From Medakamo hakoo (lineage: Eukaryota; Chlorophyta; Trebouxiophyceae; Coccomyxaceae): a DNA stretch of 64,000 nt. Location of the stretch: assembly GCA_026636295.1 (NCBI GenBank), contig CP089460.1, positions 186,001 to 250,000 of the forward strand, written 5' to 3'. Made by a program: the position numbers and the translations under genes. The notes beneath the pieces are model-generated. The model was not told where the DNA came from. It worked only from the letters and a program-made list of their open reading frames with translations, and made no database searches. Below, in pieces: positions 6,108 through 56,820 of this stretch (within the stretch, counting starts at the first letter, position 1; every line of letters starts with the position of its first letter).

Positions 6108-6305
6108 GTGCGCGGTGTGTGTGCGGTGTGTGTGCGTGCGTTGAGGCGCGGAGCGCCGCTGGGGGCGCTGTGGGAAAGCGGGTCTGAGAGAGACTCCCCC
6201 CACCACGCTCCTCGCTGCTTCACTGTGTCGTCGACGGAGAACGCCGTGACGCGGCGCGCGAAGCGAGTGCGCGCGCCGTCAGGGAAGGAAGCCGAGGCAA
6301 AACCC

Positions 6306-40018: not shown

Positions 40019-42580
40019 ATGCGCGCGCCTGCGCCCCCGTCTCCCTCTCGCCCCGGCCGCCCAGGCGCCGCCTCGCCGACGCCGGGCGCCCGCCCGCTGG
40101 GCGTGGCGGCGACCGCGACGGCCGCGCCGGTTGCGGCCACACCCGCGCCGCCTGTGCAGCCCTCCCGCCCTCCCCCCGCCACGCCGCCGCCGCTGGAGCC
40201 ACCGGCGCCCGTCGCCGCGGCCGACGACGAAAGAGAGGTGACCCTGACCCTGACCGCATTCGACCCGACGGCGGCCGGCCCGGCGGCCGTCCACTTCGTC
40301 CCTCCTGGCGGCGGCGGCGGCCCGGGCGGGTGGGCGAGTGGCGCCCCCCCCTCTGCCTTGCTCTCCCGTGCGGCCGCGGCTTGGGCGCCGTCGGCGCCCG
40401 CGCCGCACAAGCCCGGCTCCACCGGCAGCACTGGCGGTGGCGCGTTCGGGCCTCGGGGCAGGGGCGTTCAAGCGGGCGGGCGCGGGTCCGGCGGCGGCAC
40501 GGCTGACGCGTGCGTCCAGCGGCCCGGACCGGCGCGCGCCGAGGCGGGCGTGGACGGCGGCCCCCCCGCCACCGCCGCGACCGTCCCGCCGCCCGCCTCC
40601 CCTCCCTGGGCGGGCCTGGCGGCCGCGGCGGCTGCCCTGGCCCGCGCTGCCGCGGCCTCCACCCCTGCCCTGGCCGGCCCGGCGGCCGACGCGGCGGGGT
40701 GGGAGGACCCCTCGGACGCGGCCCGCCCTGCGTCTGCCTCCTTCCTCCCGCTGTGGAGCCTGGCCCCGCCCGCGTCCCTGGCGCCGGCGGCGGCCGGCGG
40801 CAGCCGGGCTGCTGCGGGCACCACGACCCGGCCGCGGCCGCATCCGCCCGCGCCCGCCCTGTCCGTCTCCGCGCTGGAGTGGTGGAGCCCGCCTCTGCCC
40901 GCCCCGCCGTCCCCGCCCCTCCTCGCCGTCGGCTACTGCAGCGCGGCGTCCGGCCCAGCCCACGCGCCCGGTGGGGGGTGGGCCCTGTTTGATCCCGTGC
41001 GCGCGGCGGGCGGGCCGGCGGCCTGCCCGCCCCTGGCGTCGGCGCGGACGGCCGCGGGCGTGTGCGCGCTCTGCATCTCGCCCGCCGCCGCCACCGCCGC
41101 CGCCCTCCGCCTGGCCACGGGCCACGCCGACGGGTCGGTGTCCCTGTGGCAGGTGGGCGAGGGCGGTGACGCGGCCTGCATTGCCCGGTCCTCCCCAGTG
41201 GCGGGCGGCCAGCACGCGGGCGCGGTGTCGGCCGTGCGGTGGCTGGCAGACAGTGGCGGCGGCGGCGGCGGCGGCGGTGGGAGCGCGGCGTCGACCACCA
41301 CCACGCCTTTGCCGGTCCTGGCCTCCACCGCGGCGGACGGCCTGGTCTGCCTGTGGACGCTGGAAGCGGGGGGTGGGAGCGAGGGCCCCGCCACGCTGGT
41401 GGCGCGCCCCTTTGCCCTGCTGCCGCCGACGCCAGACGGCGGCGGGCTGACCGACCCGCTCGCGGCGGCGTCGGAAGGCAGCGGCGCCGCCGGTCCCACG
41501 CAACAACCCAGTCCCGGCCGCGTCGGCGGGACGGGCCTGGACCTGGCGGCTGGGCCGGGTGGGCCGCACCTCCTCGTCTCCGACGACGGCGGCGGCGCGC
41601 GGGTGCTGGGCCTCGGGTCGGGCCCGGGCGCGCGCACGTGGCTGCGGCCGGCCGTCGGCGGCGGCGGCGGCTCGCCCTGCACCTCAACCACGCCCCTGTC
41701 CGCGGCTAAATGGTGCCCGCTGAGTGGCGGGGCGTCTGCGTCTTCATCGTTGCCCGCCGCCCTGACGGCGGGCTTCGACGGCCGGCTGCGCCTGTGGGCG
41801 CCGCCCGCGCTCACCGGCGGTGGTGGTGGGCCGACCGCAAGCGCGACGTCCCCCACTCCTTCGCCCGCGGCCGTCTTCGACTTGGGCGCGCCAATCACGG
41901 ACGCGGCCTGGCTGTGCGGGGCGCCCGGGCCTGGCGTGGGCGGTGGCAGCACGGCCGGCGGCCCTCCACCGCCGCCTCCGCTGTCGTTCGTCGCGACTCT
42001 GGCCGACGGCCGCCTGGCCGGGTGGGAGCTGACGCGCCGGCCGGGAGGCCCCCTCGCCCTCCAGCGCGTCGTCCGGGCGGGGGTCCGCCCCACGCGCGTG
42101 GCCGCGTCTCCGCCTGGCAGGGCGTGGGGCAGCGCGGCGTCGTCAAGCTGGGCGCCTGGCGCGGCCCTGCTGGTGGCCGTCGGCGACGACAGGGGGCGGG
42201 TGAGCGTGCTCAAGCCGTCGCCCAACTTGCGCGGTCCGCTGGTCGGTGGCGCGGCGCGCGGCGCGGACGGCGGCGGCGGGGGTGGTGGGTCGGCGGCCAA
42301 GGCCGTGCCGTTTGCCGTGGCGGGCCGGGCGGGTGCTCATGCCAACAGTCGGGCGGCCGCGGCGGCGGCCCTGCTCGCCGCCGTGGCCGTCCCGCCTGAA
42401 GAGGGCGAGGGCGGCGCGGCCACGGCCGCCGCCGAAGCCGCGGCCGAAGAAGACGGCGGTGCGACGACCGCCCCTCCGCCGCCGCCGCTGTCTCCGCCTG
42501 CCGCGGCTGTCGCATCATCCGCTTCCCGGCTGACCGGCGTGCTGGCCGACCTGCGCGCGGGAGGGTCCGGCGAAGAATGA
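40019..42580 (+). CDS. WD40-repeat protein (dynein intermediate-chain-like, tentative)
   Basis: A single exon of 853 residues starting at the ATG at 40019. The first 300 residues are Pro/Ala/Gly-rich. Then beta-propeller-like units follow: ALRLATGHADGSVSLWQVGE, AGAVSAVRWLAD with VLASTAADGLVCLWTLEAGG, LSAAKWCPLSGG with LTAGFDGRLRLWAP, and PLSFVATLADGRLAGWELTR. The order of SVSALEWW, LLAVGYCSAA, GGWALFDP and then a low-copy repeat recalls dynein intermediate chains (LAVGY followed by a GxxxxW block). That is only an impression, and no light-chain-binding motif was seen. The start could lie further upstream, but 39871-40018 carries no earlier ATG in frame. Confidence 0.6.
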   Translation: MRAPAPPSPSRPGRPGAASPTPGARPLGVAATATAAPVAATPAPPVQPSRPPPATPPPLEPPAPVAAADDEREVTLTLTAFDPTAAGPAAVHFVPPGGGGGPGGWASGAPPSALLSRAAAAWAPSAPAPHKPGSTGSTGGGAFGPRGRGVQAGGRGSGGGTADACVQRPGPARAEAGVDGGPPATAATVPPPASPPWAGLAAAAAALARAAAASTPALAGPAADAAGWEDPSDAARPASASFLPLWSLAPPASLAPAAAGGSRAAAGTTTRPRPHPPAPALSVSALEWWSPPLPAPPSPPLLAVGYCSAASGPAHAPGGGWALFDPVRAAGGPAACPPLASARTAAGVCALCISPAAATAAALRLATGHADGSVSLWQVGEGGDAACIARSSPVAGGQHAGAVSAVRWLADSGGGGGGGGGSAASTTTTPLPVLASTAADGLVCLWTLEAGGGSEGPATLVARPFALLPPTPDGGGLTDPLAAASEGSGAAGPTQQPSPGRVGGTGLDLAAGPGGPHLLVSDDGGGARVLGLGSGPGARTWLRPAVGGGGGSPCTSTTPLSAAKWCPLSGGASASSSLPAALTAGFDGRLRLWAPPALTGGGGGPTASATSPTPSPAAVFDLGAPITDAAWLCGAPGPGVGGGSTAGGPPPPPPLSFVATLADGRLAGWELTRRPGGPLALQRVVRAGVRPTRVAASPPGRAWGSAASSSWAPGAALLVAVGDDRGRVSVLKPSPNLRGPLVGGAARGADGGGGGGGSAAKAVPFAVAGRAGAHANSRAAAAAALLAAVAVPPEEGEGGAATAAAEAAAEEDGGATTAPPPPPLSPPAAAVASSASRLTGVLADLRAGGSGEE

Positions 42581-42702
42581 GGGCGGGATGGAAACGGGGT
42601 TGGCAAAATGGCGGGTCAGCAAAAAGAAAAAAAAGGCGTGACACACCACGGGAGGGGGATCACCTCCTCACACGGCCCCCCCCACCCCACCCCTCCCCCC
42701 CT

Positions 42703-42714
42703 CCCCATATGGGG
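42703..42714. repeat. 12-bp palindrome CCCCATATGGGG
   Basis: A perfect inverted repeat in a C-rich convergent gap between the WD40 gene and the secreted protein gene. Function unknown. Confidence 0.5.
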
Positions 42715-42784
42715 ACCCCCCGCCCGCCCACTCTCTATCTTTCAACACGGCTAACGTAAAGGCAACTAAAAAAGCCCCCCAGTC

Positions 42785-43590
42785 TCACTTGGCCCCCGCC
42801 GCCCTCAACCGCCGCCCCTGCTGGAAGGCGCCAAACGCGGGCCCAAACGCGTTGCCGCCCATCATGGCGTTGACGGCGGCCGCGGCCGGGTTGGAACCCG
42901 GGTTCAACGCGTTCAACGCGGCGACGGGGTCGGTGACCGCTCCCGTGTCGCCTGAGCTGCTGGTGGACATGGACACCGTCGACGAGCCGTCGGGCGAGGA
43001 CGCAACGAAGGACGTGCCGCCGCCCGAAGAAAAGGCGGCGCCGCGGCCGGGGAGGAGCGCGCCGACGGCGTTGCCCGGCAGCGGCGACGAGCCGCCGACC
43101 AGGATGACGGGCGCGGAGGCGCGGAGGTTAACGACGGACGGTGGGGCGTACGACCCGCCGGACGCCCCGTCAAACGCGCCAGAGACGAGCACGGACGCAG
43201 GCGGCGCGACGACGACGCCGCTGGTGCCGCCGCCGCCCGCTGGCGCGATGGCGGTGCCGGCGATGATGTCAGTGGTCGGCGCGACAGTGCTTGTCGTGCC
43301 GGCGCCGGCGAACGTGGCGTCGGCCGCGACGGTGGCGCCTGTGTGGGTGGATGGGGGGGGGGGGGGCGGTGAGGTAATGAGTGCCGCGATTCCAGCTGTG
43401 CACCGCCGCGCCCACCCCCAGCTTCTCGCCGGTTGTTTTTCTGACCCCTCTGCCGACCACCCCCTTTGCACCTATTTTCACTCACTTCCCTACACGCCCC
43501 CCACCCACCCCTCTCTCTCTCTCTCTCACCTGCTTGCCAGGCCGCCGCAAACAGCGAGGCGACGACCGCGTTGGTGATGAGGCGCGGCAT
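42785..43590 (-). CDS. Secreted Gly/Ala/Thr/Val-rich protein
   Basis: Exons (minus) are 43590-43530 and 43338-42785, giving 204 residues; the donor GTGAGA follows a (TC)n run and the junction is phase 1. Exon 1 is almost exactly a signal peptide (MPRLITNAVVASLFAAAWQA). The mature chain is low in charge and rich in Gly, Ala, Thr, Val and Ser (ATVAADATFAGAGTTSTVAP; VVNLRASAPVILVGG; DGSSTVSMSTSSSGDTGA). It ends with an Ala/Asn/Phe/Met segment and a basic tail GRRLRAAGAK. No cysteines are seen in the mature part. No family match was recognised; an extracellular-matrix or cell-surface role is inferred only from composition and neighbours. An AT-rich run (43769-43791) lies 180 bp upstream. Confidence 0.6.
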
Positions 43591-44071
43591 GTCTGTCCCC
43601 CCGACTTTTGCTGGGATAGGGGGCGCGAGAGAGACACCAGGGGCCCGGTCGGCCTGTGACTGGGATGGCGCACGCGCTCGGGGGCCGGGGTGGAAGAGGG
43701 GTTGCGCGGAGCCTGGGTGTGAGGCAGGTGGAAAATGAAGAACTGAGGTGTGAACATCGGGCGAGCGCTTATTATTATTATTTTTTTTTCGCGCGTCGGC
43801 GCCTGGGGGAAGGGGGGCCCGCCTGGCCTCCCTCTCTCCAGGGGCCCCTCCCCCCTGCCATCCCAGAGCCCCCCACGACGCACACGGTTCCTCCCTCTCC
43901 AACTCTCTCTCTCCTTCTCGCACGACGCACCTTCCGGGCTGACAAAGGCCACTTTACAAAAAAAACACTATAAAAGCCGGCCGCTGCGTCGCCGCCCCCT
44001 CCTCACACGTCCGTTTCCTTCTCCCATCCACCGGGACTCCCCCCCCCCTTCCCGCCCCTCCTATCAAAACG
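43591..44071. promoter_or_regulatory. Shared upstream region of two secreted-protein genes
   Basis: 481 bp between divergent start codons, unusually AT-rich in places: a TTATTATTATTATT block at 43770-43783 and a TATA box toward the right gene. No gene is seen. Confidence 0.5.
43969..43976 (+). promoter_or_regulatory. TATA box of the silk-like gene
   Basis: TATAAAAG, 96 nt before the ATG at 44072, in a window otherwise poor in TATA elements. Confidence 0.65.
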
Positions 44072-44779
44072 ATGGCCCGCCCTGCCTCCTCCCCCTCCAA
44101 ACGCCGGTCCCTACCGCTTTCCTCCCTTATCGCCGCGGCTTTACTGGCCACCGCGGGCCTAGGCCCCACGCCCGCTTTAGCCGGCGGCGGCAGTTCCGCG
44201 TCGTCTGCCGCGGCCGAAGCAAAACAACAGTCCTGGCAGCCGTGGCAATGGCAAGGCAACGGCGGTTGCGGCCCGTGGAATGGGTGGTGCGGCAATGGCG
44301 GTGGCTGGCGTGGCCCCGGCGGGTGGTGGGGCAACGGCGGCGGCTGGAACAACGGGTGGGCGCAAAGCTGGCAGCCGCCACCGCCGCCCGCGCAAGCGAG
44401 CGCGGGCGCGTCTTCCTCCGGGGCTGGAAGCGGTGGCGGTGGTGCGGCCTCCAGCGCCGCGGCCGCCGCGGCCTCTTCTGCCGCACAAGAAGCGGCCAGT
44501 GCAGCTAGCGCTGCAGCGACGGCTGTCGGGACGGGAAACCAGGCGGCAGCGGCGGCGGCGGCCTCCGCCGCCGCTGGCCGCGCCTCGGCTGCCGCGGCCG
44601 CCGCGGCCTCGGCCGGAGCTGGCAGCGCGGCCGCAGCTGCTTCGGCCGCTGCTGGGTCGGCTACAGCGGCGGCGAGCGCTGCCAGTTCTGGTGATGCCGC
44701 GGCGGCCTCTGCATCGGCGTCCGCGGCGCAGGGGCACGCATCCCAGGCGGCTGCAGCAGCCGCGTCGGCGAGCGGGTGA
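44072..44779 (+). CDS. Secreted silk-like Trp/Gly/Ala-rich protein 1
   Basis: An intron-less gene for 235 residues. A long signal peptide (KRRSLPLSSLIAAALLATAG, ending near PALA/GG) is followed by a short Ser/Ala region. The Trp/Gly block is next: SWQPWQWQGNGG, CGPWNGWCGNGGGW and GGWWGNGGGWNNGWAQSW. Two cysteines sit inside this block. A Pro run (PPPPPAQ) separates it from about 120 residues of almost pure Ala/Ser/Gly with helix-forming alanine stretches. This is the composition of silk-like or structural matrix proteins; no homology to any silk is claimed. It shares the block GGWNNGW with the gene at 54126. The preceding TATA box suggests strong or regulated expression. Confidence 0.75.
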   Translation: MARPASSPSKRRSLPLSSLIAAALLATAGLGPTPALAGGGSSASSAAAEAKQQSWQPWQWQGNGGCGPWNGWCGNGGGWRGPGGWWGNGGGWNNGWAQSWQPPPPPAQASAGASSSGAGSGGGGAASSAAAAAASSAAQEAASAASAAATAVGTGNQAAAAAAASAAAGRASAAAAAAASAGAGSAAAAASAAAGSATAAASAASSGDAAAASASASAAQGHASQAAAAAASASG

Positions 44780-45303
44780 ACACGGACAGAAACTTTTAAG
44801 AGAGCATCCCTGCGTTTTTTTTTTTTTGCGTTTTCCTGTCGCCCGCCCTGAGGTGTGCATGCCCTGCATTCTAGAGTGACATTGCGTGTTTGTGTGTGTA
44901 AGATCGAGACGACCCCATTTTTTTGCGTTGTTGCATGGTGTTTTTTTTTTCTTGGAGCGTGAGACAAGGCAAAAGGCGGCAGACTGTCGCTCCCTCACTT
45001 GCCAAAACCCGGCAGAACCTGGCGCGCTGGCGGAGCGCCCTCATTTTTCTTCACCCTACCCTCCCGCGCGCCGCAGACCATGGTGCGTGCCCGGTGGCAG
45101 CCCCGAAAGTGAAGGGACAGGAGAGAGTCAGCGGTGTCCCCGCCCGTGGCGGGCCCATTCGCCGCGCTATGGTGGGCGGCAGCGCATGCCGACTCTTGCC
45201 GCCCGCGCTCACGCCGCCGCGCCCACCCAACGCACCGTCCACCCTCGTCGTTGACGTCTGTCACACGCGGTCTCATGACGCGAGGGCCAAAAAGCTCACA
45301 AAA
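44780..45303. other. Intergenic region between two secreted-protein genes
   Basis: 524 bp on the plus-strand side of the silk-like gene. It has T-runs at 44815-44826 and 44941-44950. No convincing gene, RNA or TATA box was found. Confidence 0.5.
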
Positions 45304-46825
45304 ATGCATCCATCGACACAAACACAGGCTGCTCTGCGCGCCGCGCTCGTCGCGCTCTGCGCGCTCGCAGCGACCGCTCGGGCCGACAACCCGTTCAAAG
45401 GCCTGCCGCCCCTCGAAAAGAAGCCCGGCGTCCGCCTCCTCAACGCGTCCCAGGTGGACGCGCTCGTGACGAAACCCGTGCCCGTACCGGTGCCGCGCAA
45501 CCAGACGGCCGTCGAGAAAAAAGCGGCCCTGTTTCGGGAGGTAAGTGTTGCGCTTCCTTCCGCTCAACCCTTGGCTCCCCTCTCTCTCTCTCGCTCCCTC
45601 TCTCTCTTCGCCCTCACGCCCACACCCACGCCCAACAGCTCGTCCACCTACCTGACGGCGGCCGACCCAAACCTTACTTTGCCTTGAACGATGAGGAAGC
45701 CATCCTGGTCAACACGCTGTGCGACCAAGTGCGTTTTTCGAGACGGAGTTCTTTGTCTTCTTTCAACCAGGCGCACCCACCCACACGCTCTCACGCCCCC
45801 TGTTCCCCTCGCCCTTGCCCCAACAGGTCCTCCCCGTCAACATCTCCCGGTCCGACCTGTCCCCCGCCGGCCGGGCGTACGTCAAGCAAATGCAGCGGCT
45901 GAACGGCGACGGCTACAACAAGACCGTCGGCACGTCGCTGTCTCTCCAGTCGAAATGCATCATCAATTCGACGACGGGGCACGTGGACTGCGCCTTCGAC
46001 TTGGGCACGTTCCCACCGCAGTTTTTCGGGTTGTGGAGTGCGGCGCACCCGAAAGCCAATGTCACGGTGACGGGGTGCAGGTGAGGGCGGATGGAGGGAG
46101 TGGGGGAGGGCGGTGGGGTCGGCGCGAGGGCGCCCAAGGCAGGCAGGGTTGGAGAGGCCTGGCCTGGCCGCGCACACGAATGCCCGCCGCGCTCGCTTTG
46201 AAAGAGACGCATGCATGGCGGTGAGAGAGTGGGTGGAGGGTGAGACGCCGCCGGACGGCCGGACGGCCTCCCCTCCACACACTGCATTCTGTCCATCTCA
46301 ACCCTGCTCTCACCCGTCCCGCCCCCTCCACCACACACATGCGGCACACACCACTACAGCGTCACCTTTGACGGCTCCACCTTCACCTCGCCCGACTGCT
46401 TCCAGGGCAGCGCACCCAAAAAAGCCAAGTTTTCCCTGACGTCGGCCTGGCCCGAAACCGCCGTCCGCGACATCCACGCCGACATCCATTTCATCGACAA
46501 CGGCCTCCGCCCACCCCTCCCCGTCACTTTGCGCTACACGCACTGCCAGGCCGCGTACAACGACTACTATCCGACCGACTGGATTGGGTTCACGCCCAAA
46601 AACCAGGAGCTGGTGAATGATTACCGCATCCTCGGGCTGTTGCCGCGGCTGGGCGAGTTTGGTGAGACGGGGACGATCCATGAGCACGGCCGCGAGACGC
46701 CCGCGCTGAAAGCCTTGTTCCTGCACTTGACCAGCAGTCTGCAGGCGAAGCGCAATGCGACGCTGGCGGCGAAAGGGGAGGAAGGGTATAGCGGGAGGAG
46801 GCTCTTGAGGGCGCCTCTGAAGTGA
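45304..46825 (+). CDS. Secreted, sequon-rich orphan protein
   Basis: Exons are 45304-45540, 45639-45728, 45827-46080 and 46360-46825, giving 348 residues; donors are GTAAGT, GTGCGT and GTGAGG and all phases agree. A signal peptide (TQAALRAALVALCALAATAR, cleaved before ADNPF) starts it. Unlike its neighbours the chain has normal complexity: YFALNDEEAILVNTLCDQ, LGTFPPQFFGLWSAAHP, ADIHFIDNGLRPPLPVTLRY and THCQAAYNDYYPTDWIGFTP. Seven N-glycosylation sequons are seen (NASQ, NQTA, NISR, NKTV, NSTT, NVTV, NATL), and several cysteines could form disulfides. It ends in GRRLLRAPLK. I recognise no family; an extracellular lectin-like or adhesive role is possible but unsupported. Confidence 0.6.
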
Positions 46826-47106
46826 GAGAGAGGGGGTGGGGGGTGGGATGGGAGAGGGGGGGGTTGGCCGCTTGTTTCGCACTGTAAAACACAGAATTCT
46901 CATTTTTTTCACGGATGGCGCGTACCCGAGCCAGCGCGCACGGGTGGTGTCGTGCGCGCTGGTCGGGCCGGCGCGTGGGAAAGAAAGAATTACAGGTTGG
47001 AAGAATGGTGCCGCGCCCTCCCCGTCCCGTCGCTTCAACCCGCCCACCCACTCCCCGCCAGAAAAGAAAACGCACTCGCCCTACAGGAAAAGCAACTTCG
47101 CGTCTT

Positions 47107-48700
47107 TTAGCCTTTGAAAAACTCGCGGCCGTCCAGGCCCTTTGGCACGATCCCCTGCTCCTTCGTCCCCCACCACGTCATCTCAAAGAATTCGCGGGAC
47201 CACTCCTCGAAAAACCAGTCCTGGGATTGTGCGCACTGCTGGACGCACGGGAGCGTCAGCGGCGAGTCCGCCAGGGCTTTGTCCGACGCGAAGAACCCTC
47301 GCCCGGCCAGCACGTCCCGGTAGTACCCGTTGTTGAACGCCGGGTCACCCAGGCGGGACTGCGGGATGGCCTGGCCGGAGATGCCCATGGTGTGGCCTCC
47401 AGACAGGATGCACAGCGTGCGCGGCGTGAAGCCAAACGCCGCCCAGTCGGATAGCAACCCCTGAATCCCCAAATCTTTGCCCACGTCGCCGTGCGTGCCG
47501 ATGCCCAGGGCGACGTCGCCTTGCGTGGCGTCGATGCGGCCGTAGCCCACGTTCACCAACGGGCCGTCGTTGGCGGCGACCGCGCACGCGGCCGCGATCG
47601 CGATGCAGTCGGCGAGCGAAAACAGGTTTGGGTACTTGAGGTCCAGGATTTGTTTGCCGGACCAGATGAAGGCAAAGGCCTGGTTCAAGCCGGCGTTGTA
47701 AGGGGCGTCGTACTCGAAGCGGATGGAGGCGTTGCAGCCGCCGCTGTGTTTGTTTTTTTTGGTTGTGAGAGGGGATGGACGGATGGTGTGAGAGTGGTGG
47801 TGGGGTGAGACCGACCAGAGAAAAAAACGACTCGCCGCCCGTAAAAAAAACAAAAGATGAGGAACTCACATGGCGTGCGTGGAGTTGGCGTACCGGTTGT
47901 AGGTGCCACAGTCGTGGAAGCTGTGCGTGCGTTGGTGGAGATGGACAAGCGTGAGTCGGGAAGCCCGCCAACCCACGCGCTCGTCTCCTGACGGAAAAAA
48001 AAATACAAAACGCACGATTGCCGGAGCGTCAGGCCGTCCGTGATTCTGGTCCGCAGCACGCTAAACACTTTGTACGCCGTCGCCAGTTTTTCATCCATGA
48101 ACGCCAGTCTGATCTTGTTGGCTAAGTCAGTCTTGGCAGCGGAGACGGTGCCGTCAAATCCCTCTTTCAAAATCTCATCCAGGACGGCAAAGAAAAATTT
48201 CGGGTCTTTTTTGTCGTCGGACGGCCCTTTGCCCATGACGCCGCTGAGCATGCGGCGCGCGCCACCGCCCGTTCCCGACGCCGCGGCTTCTTCGTCAGCC
48301 GCGATGGCGGCGCTCAAGCGGGCCGTCGTCCGGTCGATGAGTTCGGCCGCGCCCGCAAACCGCGGCGCGTGGTCGGCCAGCGGCGACGCGGTGTGGCCGG
48401 GGACGTAAAAGGGCGAGCCGGCCAGTGGGGAGGGGGAGGCGGCGGTGGCCAAGGATGCTGGGCTGGCGGCGTACGGGTCTGCCAGCAGGGCGCGGCCGTG
48501 GCCTACAAGAGAGAGAGTGGACGAACGGAAATGAGAGTGGGCGAGTTCATGGGGGGCCGCGCGGCTGCTCCCGTCCCCCGCCCATTCACCAACGCACCAA
48601 ACGGGCAGGCCGCGCCCACGCCCCGCAGGGCGCAGGCGCCCACGCTGACCAGGGCCAGGGCGGTGACGGCGGCTCCCGCGCGGCGAGGGCGGCGGGGCAT
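47107..48700 (-). CDS. Secreted heme peroxidase 1 (class I-like fold)
   Basis: Exons (minus) are 48700-48598, 48502-48016, 47920-47870 and 47743-47107, giving 425 residues. The signal peptide (GAAVTALALVSVGACALRGV) ends before ACPFG, and the first intron is phase 1 right after it. A 150-residue N-terminal region with ARRMLSGVMG precedes the peroxidase fold. The distal Arg and His are in LRQSFHDCG (His about 199), then GGCNASIRFEYD. The substrate/heme block is ADCIAIAAACAVA and the proximal His about 331 is in LSGGHTMG. The late motif FNNGYYRDVLAG and ending MTWWG complete it. These are plant-peroxidase-superfamily motifs in the ascorbate/cytochrome-c-peroxidase arrangement, but here with a secretion signal. 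Such enzymes could cross-link aromatic residues of wall proteins; that is inference. Confidence 0.8.
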
Positions 48701-49418
48701 GGTTGTTGTTTGCCTGTAAGAATGGACGGAGGGGCGAGGAGAGGTGGGTGAGTGAATGGATGGACGAGGGGGCGCGTCGCCGTCGCACCGTCCGAGAATG
48801 CGGCAGTGTGCGGCCGTTGGGAGAGGCTTTCACAGCAACCCACGCATGCGTTTGGGCGTGACATGACATCTCAACGGCGACTAGGGGTGCGATCTCAGGT
48901 TTGAAAGGCTTCGACCCTTCGAAGCGGGCTGTTGGCGCTGCACGGGCCCATCGCCTGCGAGGCGAGGCGCGGCGGGCGCACCTGACGCGTGGTGCGCCGA
49001 GACAAGGGAACGCCGAACTCACCACTCCTTGCACGTGTGCGCGATTTATTGAGCGCTCTTGAGCAGTGCCACAGATGTACGTGTTATGTGTAGAGAAGGG
49101 CGCACGGTGTGTCGTGGAGCGGCCCTTTCTCCCTCGTTTTTGTCTTGCTTGTGTGAAGAGCGGCATGCGAACTCCTCACTCTGCAAAATCGAAATAAAGC
49201 GCAGCCGTGGGCACGCCAGCCGTGGCCGCCTTTTGCCTTCGTGGAAGCAGCTTACACGAGCAGCTGTCTGCGCGCGTCTTCTGTTCGCCACCGCCGAAGC
49301 GCAGGGCGCGCGACTGGGTTTCGCTTTTCTCTTGTCTGACGCGCGGCGGGCGCAATCTAGCCGCGGCACGTCGCCGCCGTTTCTTGCACCGCACACACCC
49401 CGCGTGCCCGCAGCCAAA
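48701..49418. promoter_or_regulatory. Upstream region between divergent peroxidase genes
   Basis: 718 bp without a convincing gene. It holds a 7-bp-stem hairpin (48908-48925, GCTTCGA/TCGAAGC) and AATAAA-like sequences near 49190. It is not a tRNA: no cloverleaf or T-loop fits. Confidence 0.45.
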
Positions 49419-50690
49419 ATGCCCTTCCGCCGCTCGTCGCTCCAAGCCCTGTCTTTCTTAGCCTTGGCCTGGACGGGCGGCTGCGGCGCCTGCCCGTTTT
49501 TAGCGGCGAAAAACGGAAACGCCGACACGCCGCCGCTGGCCTCGTCCGCCACGACCACCACCACCGCGCGCCGCCACCTCCTCGCCTCGGCCTACCCGTC
49601 CCCGTCCGAAGCCTTCACCGGCTTTTTACCGGGGACGCTGGGCGCGTCCATGGCCGCCATCGCCAAGACCCTGGCACCCCAGACGTCCAAACCTTTGGCC
49701 GAGCGGTACCTGCACGCCGTGGCGGGCTGGAAAAACGTCACAGCAGCCGACGGCGACGACGACACGCCCCCCCAAATCTCCCGCCTGGAAGCCGCGATTT
49801 TAGCGGTGGAGGAGTCGCTCAAAGCCGGAAAGGGTACAGCAGCCCACGACGCGTGGGACGGGTCCCTGCCGGACGCCAAGCTGGCCTTTGCGGAAGAACT
49901 CTTCACGCTGTTGATGTACCCCATCCCGCCCTCGCTCTTCGTGCGGCTGGCCTTCCACGACTGCGGCTCCTGGAACAAGGGGGCCGCGGCCATCGACAAC
50001 GGCGGTGCTGGCGGCGCGGGCCCCAAACAGGGCGGCTGCAACGGGTCCGTCCGCTTTGAGTTGGGCCGCCCCTCCAACTACGGCCTGGGCCTTACCTGGC
50101 CCGTCATAAATTTCGGGTGGAAGGTTTTGGAACACAAGTTTCCGGGCACCTTTTCGCGCGCCGACGCGGTTGCCATCGCGGGTGCGGGTGCCGTCCGCGC
50201 CAGCTTTGGGCCTGTAATTCACGTGGGCTACGGCCGGGTCGACGCGTACGGGCCCGACCCCGACTCCGGGCCCGCCGCCAACCCACAGGCGGGCAAAGAC
50301 TACTCTCCCGCCGACCTCCAGGCATCCTGGCTGGGCGCCTGGGGCCTGTCGCCGTCCTCCCTGTGCGCCCTGCTAGGCGCCCACACGTTCGGCATCTCGT
50401 CCGTCTCAGTCCCGCTGGGCGCGTTCGCGCCGACGGGCCCCATCCTCTTCACCAACACTTACTACCGGCGGGTCGTCGACGGCACGGCCCACTTCCCGCT
50501 GGACAACTCCCTGGGCCTCCTACCCGCGACGGCGGCCTGTGTGAGGGAGTACGCTGCTGACCAGGACGCGTTCTTTGGTGGGTTTGCGCGGGAGTACCGG
50601 GCGATGAGCTGGTGGGGGACGGGCGAGGGGTTGGTCGTGCGCGGGATCGTGGGCGGCGCGCCGGACGACGTCTGGAGGGAGCCTGTGTGA
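49419..50690 (+). CDS. Secreted heme peroxidase 2 (class I-like fold)
   Basis: Intron-less, 423 residues. The signal peptide (SLQALSFLALAWTGGCG) is followed by ACPF, as in the other two peroxidases, and by ARRHLLASAYP. The distal site is VRLAFHDCGSW with His about 180, followed by KQGGCNGSVRFELG. RADAVAIAGAGAV and VGYGRVDA follow. The proximal His is about 322 in LLGAHTFGIS, then FTNTYYRRVVDG and DAFFGGFAREYRAMSWWG. Arg and His of the distal pocket and the proximal His are intact, so it should be active. It ends with a short tail (VRGIVGGAPDDVWREPV). In-frame codons upstream to 49059 exist but contain no signal-like start; the ATG at 49419 gives the signal peptide. Confidence 0.82.
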   Translation: MPFRRSSLQALSFLALAWTGGCGACPFLAAKNGNADTPPLASSATTTTTARRHLLASAYPSPSEAFTGFLPGTLGASMAAIAKTLAPQTSKPLAERYLHAVAGWKNVTAADGDDDTPPQISRLEAAILAVEESLKAGKGTAAHDAWDGSLPDAKLAFAEELFTLLMYPIPPSLFVRLAFHDCGSWNKGAAAIDNGGAGGAGPKQGGCNGSVRFELGRPSNYGLGLTWPVINFGWKVLEHKFPGTFSRADAVAIAGAGAVRASFGPVIHVGYGRVDAYGPDPDSGPAANPQAGKDYSPADLQASWLGAWGLSPSSLCALLGAHTFGISSVSVPLGAFAPTGPILFTNTYYRRVVDGTAHFPLDNSLGLLPATAACVREYAADQDAFFGGFAREYRAMSWWGTGEGLVVRGIVGGAPDDVWREPV

Positions 50691-51315
50691 CGGCGGGAGG
50701 GTGGATGGGTGGGGTGGGGGGCTGGCATTGTTCTTTTTTTAGGTAGTGGACAGAGGTCGGGTATTCTTTGTTGCCAGGATAAAAAAACACCATTCTTTGT
50801 TCTTCATTGCGAAAGAGGGCGGAGCGGAGTAGGCGGGAGAGGATGGGATGGAGAGAGGCGTTGCGCGAACCGCGGCGCAGACGCGCGTTCCTAGTTCGAG
50901 GACTCCGAGAAAAACTCTGTGGCACGGGCACGCAGTCCACCGCACTCTTTCTTTCTCTCACGGCTACACTGTGCTTAAAACTACAACAAAGAGGCGAAAG
51001 GTCCGTGCGTGTGTGGGCGAGTGCGTCTGGGGGGAGGGGGCGCGCGACGACCACAATTCGCGCCGCCTGTCTCAAGTTTTGCTAGATGCGTTTGCAGCGC
51101 ACCGCGCCGCCCTGGCTGGGCGGTGCCGCGACGCCTGCCTCCTGTCCTAGAAGCTCAAGAGAGTGCGAACGTGAACCAAGGCGACAAGCCCCGCACACGG
51201 GTCTCGGAAGGCCGTGCACGGCGCTCGTTTCGGCGCCACGCTCGGCCCCGTTGGCCGTCGACCAGCGCGACTCACCCACCACCATCCGCCTTCCTTTCGT
51301 CCACCAGCAGACTTC
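50691..51315. other. Intergenic region between peroxidases 2 and 3
   Basis: 625 bp between two plus-strand genes. It has a T-run (50732-50740) and an A-run (50781-50787). No gene, RNA or TATA box was recognised. Confidence 0.5.
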
Positions 51316-52698
51316 ATGCGTCCCGCGGCGGCCACCGCCCTGCTGCTCGCCGCCTTGGCCGGTCCCGCCTCGGCGGCGTGTCCATTCAGCCGCAGCAGCG
51401 CCAGCAGCGCGGGCGGCTGCCCGTTTGGCGGGCCGTCCACCTCCGCCTCCACCCCCACCTCCCTCGACCCAGCCCGCGCCTCGCTCGCCCTCGCCGCCGC
51501 CGACTACCTGGCGGCGTCGTCGCCCGGCGACGTCACGCTCCCGCCTATTGTGAGGCAGCTGATGGCGGCGAGGGCAAAGGCGGAGAGTGAAGCGCCGGCG
51601 CCTGCCACCACCTCCACACCGGCCGCCTCCCACCGCCGGTCGCTGCGCCAGGTCCCGCCCGACTGGCGCCCGGCCGTCGGCGACTACGTCCCCCACACCG
51701 CGCTGGGCGCGGCCAAAGCGGCCCTGGAAACCGTGCTGCCCCAAACCCAAAAGGCGAAGTGGGACCGGTACTTGAGCGCGTGGAAGGCGGGCAACCACAG
51801 CCTGGGCGCGGTAGAGCCCGGGTCGGGCTGGGCTGTGCGCTCGGACGCGCGCCGCGTGCCGGCCATCAAAGCCGAGCGCGAAGCCGACGCCGTGAATAAA
51901 ACGTCTGCCATTGACGAGAGGCTGAACAAGGCGGAGCAAGTGTACGCGTCGCTGATCATCCCCAACATCTACGGCCTGCTGACGCGGCTGGCCTTCCACG
52001 ACTGCGGCCCGTACAACCCCGGGCTGGAGGCGGTCACGGCCAACGCGAGTGCGTCCCCGCCCGGCCGCACGGGCGGCTGCAACGGGTCTGTGCGCTACGA
52101 ATTTCAGCAGTCCAACAACCTGGACCTGTTCCTGGCGTGGCCGTGGGTGGACGCCGGCAAGAAAGCGCTGGACAAGCTGTACCCGGGCGTATTTTCGTAC
52201 GCGGACTGCATTGCCATCGCGGCGTCCGTGGCGGTGGCGAAGGCGACGGGTCCTGTCATGCACGTGGGGTATGGCCGCCCCGACGCCAACGGCCCGGACC
52301 CGCGCACAGGCGTCACGCACAACCCGGCGGCGGACCGGGAGCTGGCCGGGCGGGCGGGCGTGGAGGCCATGCTGTCCTCGTGGGCCGCGTACGGCCATTC
52401 GGCTGAAACGCTGACGACGCTGCTGGGCGCTCACACGTTTGGCGTGTCCTCGCAGCACGCGCCCATCGGGCTGCTCACGCCGCAGTCCATCATTTTCTCC
52501 AGTCGCTACTACGAGCGGGTGCGGGACGGCGCCGGCTACTTCCCCTCAGACGACGCCCTGCGTTACTCGCCGGTCACCTCAGCCCTCGTCGACGCGTACG
52601 CGGGAGATGAAGCCCTGTTCTTTGAGGCGTTCAGGAGGGAGTTTACGGCCATGACGTGGTGGGGCGTGGCGGCGGACCGGCAAGGGGTGGTGGGTTGA
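51316..52698 (+). CDS. Secreted heme peroxidase 3 (class I-like fold)
   Basis: Intron-less, 460 residues. The signal peptide is short and clear (MRPAAATALLLAALAGPASA) and is followed by ACPFSRSS and a second CPFGG. The motif HRRSLRQVPPDWRP marks the end of a Ser/Thr/Ala region. The distal site is LTRLAFHDCGPYNPG (His about 228), then RTGGCNGSVRYEF. ADCIAIAASVAVA, VGYGRPDANGPDP and the proximal His about 373 in LLGAHTFGVS follow. FSSRYYERVRDGAGYFPSDD and EALFFEAFRREFTAMTWWG close the fold. The middle region (residues 115-210) has sequons NHS and NKT. It is closest to peroxidase 1 in ADCIAIAA and MTWWG, and to peroxidase 2 in lacking introns. Confidence 0.83.
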   Translation: MRPAAATALLLAALAGPASAACPFSRSSASSAGGCPFGGPSTSASTPTSLDPARASLALAAADYLAASSPGDVTLPPIVRQLMAARAKAESEAPAPATTSTPAASHRRSLRQVPPDWRPAVGDYVPHTALGAAKAALETVLPQTQKAKWDRYLSAWKAGNHSLGAVEPGSGWAVRSDARRVPAIKAEREADAVNKTSAIDERLNKAEQVYASLIIPNIYGLLTRLAFHDCGPYNPGLEAVTANASASPPGRTGGCNGSVRYEFQQSNNLDLFLAWPWVDAGKKALDKLYPGVFSYADCIAIAASVAVAKATGPVMHVGYGRPDANGPDPRTGVTHNPAADRELAGRAGVEAMLSSWAAYGHSAETLTTLLGAHTFGVSSQHAPIGLLTPQSIIFSSRYYERVRDGAGYFPSDDALRYSPVTSALVDAYAGDEALFFEAFRREFTAMTWWGVAADRQGVVG

Positions 52699-52916
52699 GA
52701 GGCGTGTTTTTGTTGGGAGGCGACGAAAAAAAAAAAAATTCGCAGGCAAAAAAACGAGTCAGTCATTCGGGTGTGTTTACACTCTATTTGTTCACACGCG
52801 CTTGGCGTCAGGACACCAGGCGGTCAATGCTTAATTCACGGCTTGGGCGGTGGGATGGGTGCCGTGTCGGGGGTAAACGACCGGTCTCCACCTCTCCCGC
52901 CTTTCGCACCCCACAC

Positions 52917-53649
52917 TCACACCGTCTTCTGGGCGGACGACGTGGCCGCCGCGGACGCTTCCCCGGACGTGTCCTGGGCGGGAGGGGGAGGGGGAGGCTG
53001 GGGTGCGGCCGGCTGCTGCACAGCGACGACGCCACCGCCGCCACCGCCGCCGCTGGTCGTCGCCGCGCCGACGGCCGCGCCGCCACTGCCACCTCCCGGG
53101 TTGGAGAAAAAGACCGTCCCGCCATTGCCCGTGCTGAAGGAAGAGACGCCCGCGCCGCCGGGGGCAGCAAACGCGGGCGCGGCAAAGCCGCTGCCGGCGC
53201 CGACGGCGATGCCGCCGGCCGACGCAAAGCCCGGGCCCGCCATCGCGGGGAAGGCGGCAAAGCCGGGGAAGCCGCCGCCGCCGCCGCCGCCGCCGAACAC
53301 GACCTGGTTGTTGCCATTGGAAGAAGAGGAGACGGCAGCCACACCGGATCCCGACCCGTCAGCAGGATAGGACGTGAAGACGACGCCACCGTTTTGGGCG
53401 GCGGCCAGGCCTGGAGGTGAGGGGGGGGGGGGGGATAAAAGGGGTGGGGTGGGGTTGGGGGGGGATGGTGGTGGCAGGTGAGGGAGGGTGGCGGCGCGGC
53501 CGGGGGGGCTCTGGCTTTTTTTTCGCTCGCGGAGGCACGCCCGGGGCTTTTGCCCTGCCCAGTCCGCGGACTTAACCATCAACTGCGAATGTCACACTCT
53601 CCACAAACGCACCTGCCATGCCCAGGACTAAGAAAGGGATGCGGACCAT
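52917..53649 (-). CDS. Secreted Gly/Ala/Val-rich protein
   Basis: Exons (minus) are 53649-53613 and 53410-52917, giving 176 residues (donor GTGCGT, phase-1 junction). The short first exon plus the first residues of exon 2 form the signal peptide (MVRIPFLVLGMAGLAAAQ). The mature chain is Gly-rich with scattered Phe and Val ([55 protein letters not shown]), then a Pro run and TSSAQKTV. It has no cysteine. Repeated VVF/GTVFF units hint at beta-rich self-association. No family match. A TATA box lies about 155 nt upstream on its strand. Confidence 0.6.
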
Positions 53650-53803
53650 TGGCGTTTTCAAAGGTGCACACAGGCGGGAGGAAAGGCGGTTGCGTTTGGG
53701 AGAGGAGTGGCGAGAGAGGTGCCGAGTGCCCGGGCGGAGGAGGGCGCGGATGACGGGAGGCAGAGAACAGAGGTCTGAAGACAGGTCTCGGAGGAGCGCA
53801 GGG

Positions 53804-53811
53804 TTTTTATA
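53804..53811 (-). promoter_or_regulatory. TATA box of the secreted Gly-rich gene
   Basis: TATAAAAA on the minus strand, about 155 nt before the ATG at 53649. Confidence 0.55.
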
Positions 53812-53974
53812 GTTTGCGTGTTTTCGCGGCCGGCGTAGGCCAGAAAAACAGCCGGCGAGAAGCTGGGGGTGGGTGTGGTGCGGCGGTGCACAGGTGGCAG
53901 CGCGGCAGCGCGCGCGCGCGCGCGACCTGCGCTCACCTTCCGTGCCCGCGCGGGTCCCTTTTCCCTCGCGCGCG

Positions 53975-53981
53975 TATAAAT
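53975..53981 (+). promoter_or_regulatory. TATA box of silk-like gene 2
   Basis: TATAAAT, 151 nt before the ATG at 54126. Confidence 0.55.
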
Positions 53982-54125
53982 TCTCGCGTCGCGTCCGGAC
54001 CACTGCCTCACAATCCAATTCTCTTTTGTGCCTGCAAAAGCCCTCCCTCCGCCCTCTGCCAGCGCGCGCGCCGCGCGGCACCCCGCACCCACCCTCCACC
54101 CACAACACAACACACACAACCAACC

Positions 54126-54762
54126 ATGCGCTCTGGCCTCACCGCCCTCTGCCTGGGCGTCGCCCTCGTGTCCGGCGGCGCTTTACCCGGCGCGTCCGCG
54201 GCCGTCGTCACTACAAACGGCGCGGGTGTTGCCACTGCCTTAGAAGCGCCCATCGGCGGATCGGGCGGGCCGCCGACCAAGTTCACCCGTGCGTTGTTGT
54301 GCGTGTGTTTTTAAAGGCCCGCGCGCGCGCGCGCGCACCTTCCTTCCTTCCCCTCTTGCCCCTCACACGCCCTCCCTCCCTCTCCTCTCCTGCCATTCCA
54401 CAGAAAACCGCAAGCTGATGAACTGGGGCTACCGGCCGTGGTGGGGAGGCGGCTGGGGTGGGTGGAACAACGGGTGGAACAATGGGTGGGGCGGCGGTGG
54501 GTGGGGCCAGCCCTCTGCATCGAGCGCGGCCGCGTCCGCCTCCAACTCGGGCAACGGCTACGGCGGTCCCTGGGGCGGCGGTGGCGGCGGTGCGAGCGCC
54601 GCCAGCTCTTCCGCCAGCTCCGGCGGCGGTGGCTGGGGAGGCGGCAGCTCGGCCGCCGCGGCGGCTGCGTCGGCGGGCGGCGCGAGCGCGAGTGCGGCGG
54701 CCGCGAGCGCGGGCGGCGGCGGGGCGTCGTCGGCCGCCGCCGCTGCCTCTGCCGGCAAGTGA
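54126..54762 (+). CDS. Secreted silk-like Trp/Gly/Ala-rich protein 2
   Basis: Exons are 54126-54288 and 54404-54762, giving 173 residues (donor GTGCGT, phase-1 junction completing a Gln codon). The signal peptide is clear (LTALCLGVALVSGGALPGAS, cleaved near ASA/AVV). After KFTQNRKLMNWGYRP comes the Trp/Gly block: PWWGGGWGGWNNGWNNGW, then GGGGWGQP. The rest is Ser/Ala/Gly (SSASSGGGGWGGGSSAAAAA) and ends AASAGK. It has the same order as the 44072 gene: signal, Trp/Gly block with GGWNNGW, then poly-Ala/Ser, so the two are probably paralogs despite one having an intron. Confidence 0.72.
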
Positions 54763-54881
54763 GGCATGTGTGCGTGTACTGAAAGAGAGCGAGAGCGAGG
54801 GAGCGAATGCATGACTTAACGGCGGGCGGGAGAGGGAGAGGGAGAGCATTAAGAGAGAGCGTGGGAGGAGCCTGAGGGCGT

Positions 54882-54901
54882 GGGGGGGGGGGGGGGGGGG
54901 G
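54882..54901. repeat. 20-nt G homopolymer
   Basis: Uninterrupted G-run just past the 3' end of silk-like gene 2 and before the convergent SET gene's stop. Confidence 0.9.
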
Positions 54902-54915
54902 TGCATTTTTTGTCA

Positions 54916-56820
54916 CTACCTGCTTTGCTGCACGCCTCCCGTCACGCGGCGCACAGCCGCCGCCACAGCCTCCCGCCCCCCGCCCCCGGCCGCCAGCCCC
55001 CCCGCCACCGCGTCCCAAAGAACCATCGACTGGTACGCGCCGGCGGTCAGGCACGCCAGCCTCGCCCGCCGCCACGCCGCCCGCCCCGCGCCGGGCGGCG
55101 CCGCCACGGTCGACGGGACGGGCTGCGTCCCTGCGGCGTCCGCCAGGCCCGCGTCCGCCAGGGCGGGGGCCAGGGGCGCGTACCGCCGCCCCAGCGCCGT
55201 CCACACGGCCGACGGCTCGCACACCCCGCTCGTGCAGCACCCGTCCGCGTCCTCCGCGCCCTCCGCGGCCCTGCCCAGCTCTTTCAGCGCGGGCAGCAGC
55301 GGCGGCGCGCCACGGCGGACCGCGAGCGCAAGGAGTTCGGCCGCGCGCGCGGCGACCGCGGCCCGGGCGGCGCCCGCGTCCCCGCCGGCCACCGCCGTGA
55401 GGGCCGCGACCGCGCGCCCGTCCGCCCGCCCGCCCGCCCACAGCCGCAGCCGGCCCGCTTCCGCGCGGACGTCCGGGTCGGGCGACGCCAGGCCGGCCCG
55501 TTCCGCCGGGCTGGCGGCAGCGGCCGCGGCGGCCGCGGCGGCCTCCACCCCGCCGCCGCCGCCGCCGCCGCCGCCCATCCACGCCACGGCGTCGGCCACG
55601 CCCTCCCACAGCGCCACGGACTCGGACGGGTTGCGCGGCGGGATGAAGCCGTAGCTCGCCAGGAAGTCGGCGTTGGGCCGCCCCGCCCCGTAGTCGAAGA
55701 GGACCTCTTCGCCCGGCGCCAGGTCGTGTGCCGCGGTCACGGCCAGCCGCCACCCGGCCGTCCCGCCGCCCGTGCCGCCGTGCCCCGGCGCGAGCTCCCA
55801 CTCCGCCGAGTGCGTGGGCGCTGACCGGCCCGCCAGCAGCAGTTCGGCTTCCCCGCCGGCGTGGTTGACCATGTCGAAGAGCGGGACGAGGCCGCGCACG
55901 ATCGTGGCGGCGGGCGGCGGCGCGTGGCCGTCGCCCGCCCCTCCACCCCCTCCACCCCCACCCCCACCAGCGACGGGCAGCCCGGCCGTCCGGCTCTGCA
56001 CCACGCTCCTCGCCCAGCTCCACGCCGCCGCGTCGGTGCCGGGGGGTGCCAGGCCTGCGGCTTGCACGGCTTCCCATTCGGACTGCAGCGCTGCCGGCCC
56101 AGCCGCGAGGGCGGCGCGCGCGGCGGGGCAGGGCAGGAGGGCGGACGCCGCGACCAAGAGCGGGCCGGCGGTCGCGGAAAAGGCGCAGCCGACGTCCGAG
56201 GGAAGCACGCGCAGCCAGGGCGCCCAGGGAGAGGCCTGGCCGGCGGCGGCTTCCCTAAGCAGTCGCAGCGCCAGCCGCGCCGCCCAGCCCAGGCCGCCGC
56301 GCCCGCCGCCGGCGGCGGCGTGCCCGCCGCCCTCTAGGGCGCCCTCGTCCAGTAGCGCCAATTTCAGCGGGACCGTCAGCACCGGCGTGCCCGCGGCCAC
56401 GTCCGTGGCAGCGAGGACGCCGCGCTCAGCGGGCGTGGCGTACATGCCGGCCGTGGGGCGGGGGCCGTCCAGGCCGGTCACGCCTGTGTGGTGTGTGTGT
56501 AGGGAAGGGGGTCGTGCAGCCGTGCCGCGCGCTGAGCTGGCCGGGGGCCCTGGCCACACGCCCACGCCACCCACGCCCCGCCGCTCCGCCAATGCGCATT
56601 GGGCACCAGTCACTTATTGCCGCTCACCATTGGCCGTCAGCCACCCTAAAAAATCCTGGAGCGCGTCCTCATCGTCCAACTCGGCGGTGGCGGCGCCGCC
56701 GAGCGGCGGGCGCGACGCGTCAATTGGCACCAACCGCGCAAGCGGGCGCGGCGTCCTCGCCCGGCGCGACACGCTGTTCGGCGCGCAGGAGGGGTGTGCC
56801 CGCCCCCGCGCGACGCGCAT
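54916..56820 (-). CDS. SET-domain protein methyltransferase (LSMT/SETD3 family)
   Basis: Exons (minus) are 56820-56628 and 56483-54916, giving 586 residues (donor GTGAGC, phase-1 junction). The N-terminus (RARTPRPLARLVPIDASRPP) could be a transit peptide, as in plastid LSMT enzymes. It is followed by DEDALQDFLGWLTANG. The split SET domain shows AERGVLAATDVAAGTPVLTV with VPLKLALL. Then come APWLRVLPSDVG, LVPLFDMVNHAG, the SAM-pocket Asn-His, and the catalytic Tyr region EEVLFDYGAGRPNADFLASY with GFIPPRNPSE. The C-terminal half is the helical substrate-binding domain. Plant members methylate Rubisco large subunit or fructose-bisphosphate aldolase; animal SETD3 methylates actin. The substrate here is unknown. 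Confidence 0.75.

Follow-up and report, generated by a model that had tools for sequence, protein, structure and literature searches.

Class III peroxidases set extensin walls through tyrosine motifs (PMC8160292), the zygote walls of Chlamydomonas are reinforced by isodityrosine (PMC6912462), and in barnacle cement peroxidases and lysyl oxidases occur alongside Gly/Ala/Ser-rich silk-like proteins (PMC5099703). Here we analyse a locus of the trebouxiophyte alga Medakamo hakoo, at positions 42785-54762 of a 64,000-base window (the whole stretch of DNA analysed; part of contig CP089460.1, our contig C9), in which eight consecutive genes encode predicted secreted proteins: three heme peroxidases (PX1, PX2 and PX3), an orphan protein (ORPH) and four low-complexity chains (A1, B1, A2 and B2). 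We propose, at a probability of about 0.5, that this is an extracellular gene cluster of the cell wall or a sheath, in which two silk-like pairs flank a glycoprotein and three secreted peroxidases. Barnacle cement shares with the locus low-complexity silk-like chains and secreted oxidases, but is an animal adhesive found by proteomics and, as far as the source goes, not shown as one locus; the protein cross-links of the Chlamydomonas zygote wall are Tyr-based, whereas Tyr is nearly absent from A1, A2, B1 and B2. Glycine-rich, hydroxyproline-containing wall polypeptides were reportedly found by Voigt in 1994, by biochemical means, to be widespread in green algae (cited in PMC11839794).

Class III peroxidases are stated to be exclusive to streptophytes and absent from chlorophytes (PMC8517187, section 6), and have been reported in streptophyte algae (PMC11156808). 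Some peroxidases that belong to neither class II nor class III also carry signal peptides, as described for a Bigelowiella APx-CcP, an animal clade and fungal hybrid B (PMC4232752); PX1-3 resemble these secreted class-I-like or hybrid enzymes in carrying signal peptides, although the latter belong to other lineages and the comparison is one of descriptions only. M. hakoo is about 1 µm across, with thick cell walls and a genome of 72.7% GC (PMC9871001), which in the assembly used here comprises 15,638,232 bases in 16 contigs; wall-altered mutants have also been described (PMC12868012). The words 'peroxidase' and 'extracellular' are absent from the main text of the former report, as are 'peroxidase', 'extracellular' and 'secret-' from that of the latter, and we found no such green algal locus described in the open-access literature, judged mostly by titles and the beginnings of abstracts.

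A block of eight predicted secreted genes

The genes are arranged in the order A1(-), B1(+), ORPH(+), PX1(-), PX2(+), PX3(+), A2(-) and B2(+), so that a divergent low-complexity pair stands at each end (A1/B1 and A2/B2) with ORPH and PX1-3 in between; all nine introns of the eight refined spliced models have GT-AG borders. Secretion was assessed with a home-made signal-peptide heuristic that scores a hydrophobic core, a positive n-region and small residues at -3/-1. All eight cluster genes pass, compared with 22 of 424 background open reading frames (ORFs) that begin with ATG, span at least 60 amino acids and were taken from the window flanks and eight further loci (L009-L016). The locus is thus an unbroken block of eight predicted secreted proteins. 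The original prediction, made from the letters alone, had described eight consecutive genes with signal peptides, comprising three heme peroxidases with intact active sites, four low-complexity Gly/Ala/Ser-rich chains, two of them dense in Trp, and one sequon-rich orphan; each part of that description holds in the analyses below.

Predicted secreted peroxidases

PX1 (48700-47107, minus strand; exons 48700-48598, 48502-48016, 47920-47870 and 47743-47107; 425 amino acids), PX2 (49419-50690, plus strand, intronless; 423 amino acids) and PX3 (51316-52698, plus strand, intronless; 460 amino acids) belong to the heme peroxidase superfamily PF00141. PX2 (E 1.1e-24) and PX3 (E 3.6e-29) match the family, the PX1 frame lies above the curated cut-off in a genome search with the same model, and in all three the distal Arg and His are kept, as are the proximal His and Asp. 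In the whole genome PF00141 gives 12 matches at 11 places (two nearby matches on contig C5 being counted as one gene), three of which are in the cluster. Alignment with nine metagenomic relatives shows the distal Arg, Phe and His and the proximal His and Asp to be invariant in PX1-3 and the aligned relatives. PX1-3 also have a distal Asn, which recurs in 10 of the 11 rows of a profile alignment, hereafter A4, built from 11 peroxidase sequences with PX1 left out; relative P0010 has Ser there. Given the roles that we presume these residues to play at the heme, PX1-3 look active.

The best 60 matches of PX2 in the PDB are ascorbate and cytochrome c peroxidases, and the A4 profile scores higher against class I (67.5 bits; best PDB match 5l86, an ascorbate peroxidase) than against class III (56.5 bits), although PX3 alone is nearly tied (43.7 against 42.5 bits). 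The heme residues are likewise those of ascorbate peroxidases (APX), and in the tree described below two APX-like M. hakoo genes come next after the cluster and PX4. Unlike these, the cluster enzymes are predicted to be secreted and carry a pro-region, and in A4, which covers PX2, PX3 and their relatives, the ascorbate-binding Arg172 of APX lies opposite a gap and Trp179, beside the heme, is replaced by Leu or Phe. With class III secretory peroxidases, including the extensin peroxidases, PX1-3 share the signal peptide (by the heuristic), the distal Phe, a presumed wall role, and a Cys in each of the motifs FHDC and GGCN, invariant in A4 and also found in PX1, a pair that resembles a class III disulfide. 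Class III peroxidases have four conserved disulfides, that is, eight Cys. The five Cys of PX3 exclude the full set and the six of PX2 are also too few; PX1 has nine.

A tree of 19 rows, none of them class III and with a program warning of long-branch joins, places PX1-3 and all nine metagenomic relatives in one group, at a fork whose support of 82/92 does not rank as strong. Next to join are PX4, a further M. hakoo peroxidase considered below (100/98), and then the APX-like M. hakoo genes at L011 (86/79) and L010; a fifth predicted secreted peroxidase, PX5, sits on a very long branch within the APX rows. Three of the relatives belong with PX2 (best 79% identity) and six with PX3 (best 85%), so the split between the two genes is older than the divergence of those species.

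Evidence on the route of export comes from glycosylation sites: an N-glycosylation sequon stands at one aligned place in all 10 A4 rows that extend to it (the eleventh, P0013, is truncated at this point), supporting a secretory over a plastid route; in PX1, which is not in A4, sequons occur only at other places. No match was found in NCBIfam for the four peroxidases scanned, and relatives of the peroxidases or of ORPH were found in neither IMG/VR nor GTDB genomes, nor were PX3 relatives found in phages. An AlphaFold2 model of PX3 from 11 sequences was unusable (mean predicted local distance difference test score, pLDDT, 43).

Two minor features of the family were also recorded. A motif M[TS]WWG, possibly a surface electron-transfer or structural Trp pair, lies near the end of the peroxidase domain in PX1-3, P0005-P0013 and PX4. 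P0011 and P0012 show apparent intron read-through in the peroxidase domain where PX2 is intronless, which suggests intron loss in the PX2 lineage.

A pro-region with a site-1 protease motif

PX1-3 and their relatives have a common layout of signal peptide, the tripeptide CPF, a variable pro-region, the motif RRxL and the enzyme. In all 12 peroxidases tested CPF lies at the beginning of the predicted mature chain and is followed by a variable stretch and then the enzyme, and RRxL is found in 11 of the 12 pro-regions (P0012 being without it), when shuffled pro-regions contain it in 2-8% of cases each and 0.54 occurrences would be expected in all. The motif reads RRML in PX1, RRHL in PX2 and RRSL in PX3, the last with CPF twice. 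PX4 (L012, about 4080-5470; C7:1062115), a predicted secreted heme peroxidase elsewhere in the genome, has ACPF and RRAL. PX5 (L014, about 4400-6400, minus strand; C4:372924), likewise predicted to be secreted, outside the 12 and not modelled across introns, has GCPF and later RRLL. Such a CPF-to-RRxL pro-region was not met in the descriptions of class-I-like and hybrid peroxidases, as far as the available part of the source goes (PMC4232752).

In plants, RRxL is where site-1 protease cleaves the precursors of RALF peptides, and 11 of the 12 enzymes carry a motif of this type in a secretory pro-region. Plant site-1 protease cleaves the precursors of RALF22 and RALF23 (PMC7660594). M. hakoo encodes a homologue of the protease (L027:361-2331, minus strand; C3:1119316), with E 3e-192 to the human enzyme, MBTPS1 domains and the active-site motif GTSVASP. 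Its presence makes maturation of the peroxidases by site-1 protease in the Golgi likely.

Low-complexity genes at both ends

The outer genes encode A1 (43590-42785, minus strand; exons 43590-43530 and 43338-42785; 204 amino acids, Ala/Gly/Ser/Val-rich), B1 (44072-44779, plus strand; 235 amino acids), A2 (53649-52917, minus strand; exons 53649-53613 and 53410-52917; 176 amino acids, Gly/Ala/Ser-rich) and B2 (54126-54762, plus strand; exons 54126-54288 and 54404-54762; 173 amino acids), all predicted to be secreted. B1 and B2 each consist of a Trp/Gly/Asn block followed by a tail rich in Ala, Ser and Gly. Gly, Ala and Ser together make up 49% of A1, 55% of A2, 70% of B1 and 65% of B2. Trp is concentrated in B1 (11 residues) and B2 (10), with one in A1 and none in A2; Tyr numbers four in all (one each in A1 and A2, none in B1, two in B2), and Lys is similarly sparse (one, one, two and three in A1, A2, B1 and B2).

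In the dominance of Gly, Ala and Ser and the presence of Ala/Ser stretches, B1 and B2 are silk-like and A1 and A2 partly so, although only short imperfect repeats are found in place of the long near-identical arrays of silks. The chains do not resemble extensins or other hydroxyproline-rich glycoproteins, having 0-2 Tyr each and no Ser-Pro repeats, with single proline runs in A2 and B1. A DNA word encoding WNNGW occurs at three sites in the genome, all in B1 or B2. A more relaxed DNA pattern for Trp-Gly carried no information, with 291/305 matches and 226/243 in the reversed control. We do not regard the pairs A1/B1 and A2/B2 as a recognisable duplication, the likeness of A1 to A2 being within that of shuffles and that of B1 to B2 marginal.

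That these frames are merely open stretches of very GC-rich DNA and not real proteins is highly improbable: the genome has 72.7% GC (PMC9871001) and other frames are open too, but B1, B2 and A2 each have a TATA box 103-162 bp ahead of the start codon, a heuristic signal peptide directly follows the start in all four, A1, A2 and B2 have GT-AG introns, and B1 uses mixed Ala codons (33/29/16/10) with no single-codon run over 4.

Candidate promoter elements shared by low-complexity genes

The 64-kb window contains three TATAWAW motifs, against 0.09 expected, each of them on the right strand before B1, A2 or B2: TATAAAA at 43969..43975 (plus strand), 103 bp before the B1 start codon, TATAAAA at 53805..53811 (minus strand), 162 bp before that of A2, and TATAAAT at 53975..53981 (plus strand), 151 bp before that of B2. 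For three sites in the cluster span the Poisson probability is 3.5e-4, uncorrected and for sites first spotted by eye. Genome-wide there are 172 sites in 15.6 Mb against 140 for the reversed control, so little above it that most are probably chance. A role of such boxes in marking a genome-wide class of secreted genes received no support: a signal-peptide-like ORF was found among the listed ATGs at 2 of 24 sites (20 further regions), by a script that flags B1 and B2 but not A2, which has a first exon of fewer than 40 codons.

A second signal is an element of about 70 bp present in two inverted copies that lie 10 kb apart and share 84% identity, one inside intron 1 of A1 (43381..43448, plus strand) and the other in the A2-B2 intergenic stretch, flanked by the divergent TATA boxes of the two genes (53838..53907, minus strand). 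No third copy was found in the genome at E <= 0.01. The 22-base core is exact in both copies; elsewhere two matches with three mismatches occur, against four in the reversed control. We infer that it may be a control element of the low-complexity genes, which, with shared TATA boxes and this element, look co-regulated.

ORPH and conservation of the core

ORPH (45304-46825, plus strand; exons 45304-45540, 45639-45728, 45827-46080 and 46360-46825; 348 amino acids) is a predicted secreted protein with seven N-glycosylation sequons and nine Tyr. It ends in RRLL, and a similar end is found in its relative P0004 but not in P0001-P0003. Neither ORPH exons 1 and 4 nor P0001 and P0002 gave a Pfam match over the cut-off (best E 0.26 and 0.36), the ORPH profile (A3) gave no PDB match up to E 5, and an AlphaFold2 model of the last domain, made through P0002 from five sequences, was unusable (mean pLDDT 33).

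Metagenomes hold four relatives of ORPH, with 69-85% identity over 43-54% of the query, in addition to the nine of the peroxidases. P0004 and the PX2-like P0006 (79%) were both reported from a Joint Genome Institute contig of exactly 10,027 bases; the identical figure suggests one contig, so that ORPH and a PX2-like peroxidase are probably linked in a relative as they are here. Synteny of the core thus has one supporting case and that of the silk-like part none. The expectation that the eight genes would stay together in relatives is accordingly borne out for ORPH with a PX2-like peroxidase, probably and in one relative only.

Possible functions of the locus

The reading of the locus as an extracellular gene cluster draws on the eight of eight genes passing the heuristic, the kept heme sites, RRxL together with a site-1 protease, the aligned sequon, the TATA boxes and the ~70-bp element, the WNNGW word, the probable ORPH/PX2 linkage in a relative and the thick walls of the alga. 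We propose that all eight proteins would pass through the endoplasmic reticulum and that site-1 protease would remove the peroxidase pro-region at RRxL in the Golgi. The silk-like chains may be made under common control from the TATA promoters and self-assemble in the wall through their Ala/Ser/Gly stretches and Trp-Gly blocks. There the peroxidases could use hydrogen peroxide to oxidise aromatic donors, whether the Trp of B1 and B2, the Tyr of ORPH or phenolic wall compounds, an oxidation that would make the layer insoluble.

Several results weigh against this proposal. Tyr is near absent from the low-complexity chains, and the shared promoter signals were not found at the peroxidases or ORPH, with TATAWAW also lacking at the A1 promoter. 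About 10 kb around PX4 and PX5 holds no recognised silk-like neighbour. Within the cluster, A1 and A2 show no likeness beyond composition (194 of 300 shuffles score as high), and for B1 and B2, which have a common layout, the likeness in residue order is marginal against shuffles that keep the blocks in position (24 and 45 of 1000 score as high). B2 and A2 found only themselves in their own genome at E <= 1e-3, none of 4001 candidates matched residues 1-110 of B1 at E <= 0.1 (a search made with B1 alone of the four chains), and PX1 is without a closer relative among the nine found.

Some of the same facts favour a competing account, which we regard as somewhat less probable than the proposed cluster: the peroxidases would act extracellularly on hydrogen peroxide or small phenols, in detoxification, defence or the polymerisation of a wall material other than protein, and the silk-like chains would belong to a separate wall set whose genes merely adjoin theirs. 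The scarcity of Tyr in the low-complexity chains, the restriction of the TATA boxes and the ~70-bp element to their genes, the location of PX4 and PX5 elsewhere and the presence of metagenomic relatives for the peroxidases and ORPH but none for B1 all agree with such a division. Against it stand the uninterrupted series of eight genes for predicted secreted proteins, in which two silk-like pairs enclose a peroxidase core, the ORPH/PX2 linkage that is probably kept in a relative, and the 21 potentially oxidisable Trp of B1 and B2.

Chance and tandem duplication, by which one secreted peroxidase was tripled beside ordinary secreted genes, are an unlikely source of the arrangement. PX1-3 are indeed duplicates of one family in the tree, and the locus draws on few families (peroxidase, orphan and two low-complexity kinds); but the PX2 and PX3 clades each have metagenomic relatives of their own, which points to an old duplication that has been kept, and genes 10 kb apart are tied together by the element and the TATA boxes that they share.

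Within the proposed extracellular cluster, it is the cross-linking step that the results weaken. Four Tyr in four low-complexity chains mean that Tyr coupling cannot be the main link among them, which leaves Trp coupling in B1 and B2, the Tyr of ORPH and phenolic wall compounds as candidates. The original prediction that the low-complexity chains are structural substrates hardened by the peroxidases is supported in part. The secreted block, the active-looking enzymes and the published absence of class III peroxidases from chlorophytes agree with it, and the TATA boxes, the ~70-bp element and the probable ORPH/PX2 linkage speak for a unit; the few Tyr, the lack of a shared promoter signal at the peroxidases and ORPH, and the location of PX4 and PX5 away from any recognised silk-like gene do not. 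A stronger form, in which the locus would be a self-contained hardening module whose silk-like chains are cross-linked through Trp by chlorophyte-specific secreted pro-peroxidases, derived from class I independently of class III and switched on by site-1 protease, we consider doubtful, although Trp (TGG) in place of Tyr (TAY) as the cross-link residue would fit a 73% GC genome.

If the extracellular cluster is real, with three of the alga's five predicted secreted heme peroxidases encoded in a single locus beside silk-like genes, an enzyme-set extracellular matrix would have arisen in chlorophytes separately from the streptophytes, to which the secreted, phenol-oxidising class III peroxidases are stated to be exclusive, and a 15.6-Mb nuclear genome would offer a short, testable list of the wall parts of M. 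hakoo.

Flanking genes

An Rfam search of 42000-56000 gave only two sub-threshold microRNA matches, which we take as chance. The flanks had been described as intracellular housekeeping genes. Six of eight flank ORFs scanned have Pfam matches; for the two immediate neighbours (40538-42472 and 55024-56484) no match was found at E <= 1e-3. To the left of the cluster the matched ORFs are a methyltransferase, a porin and an isocitrate dehydrogenase; to the right they are a ZIP transporter, CobW and V-ATPase.

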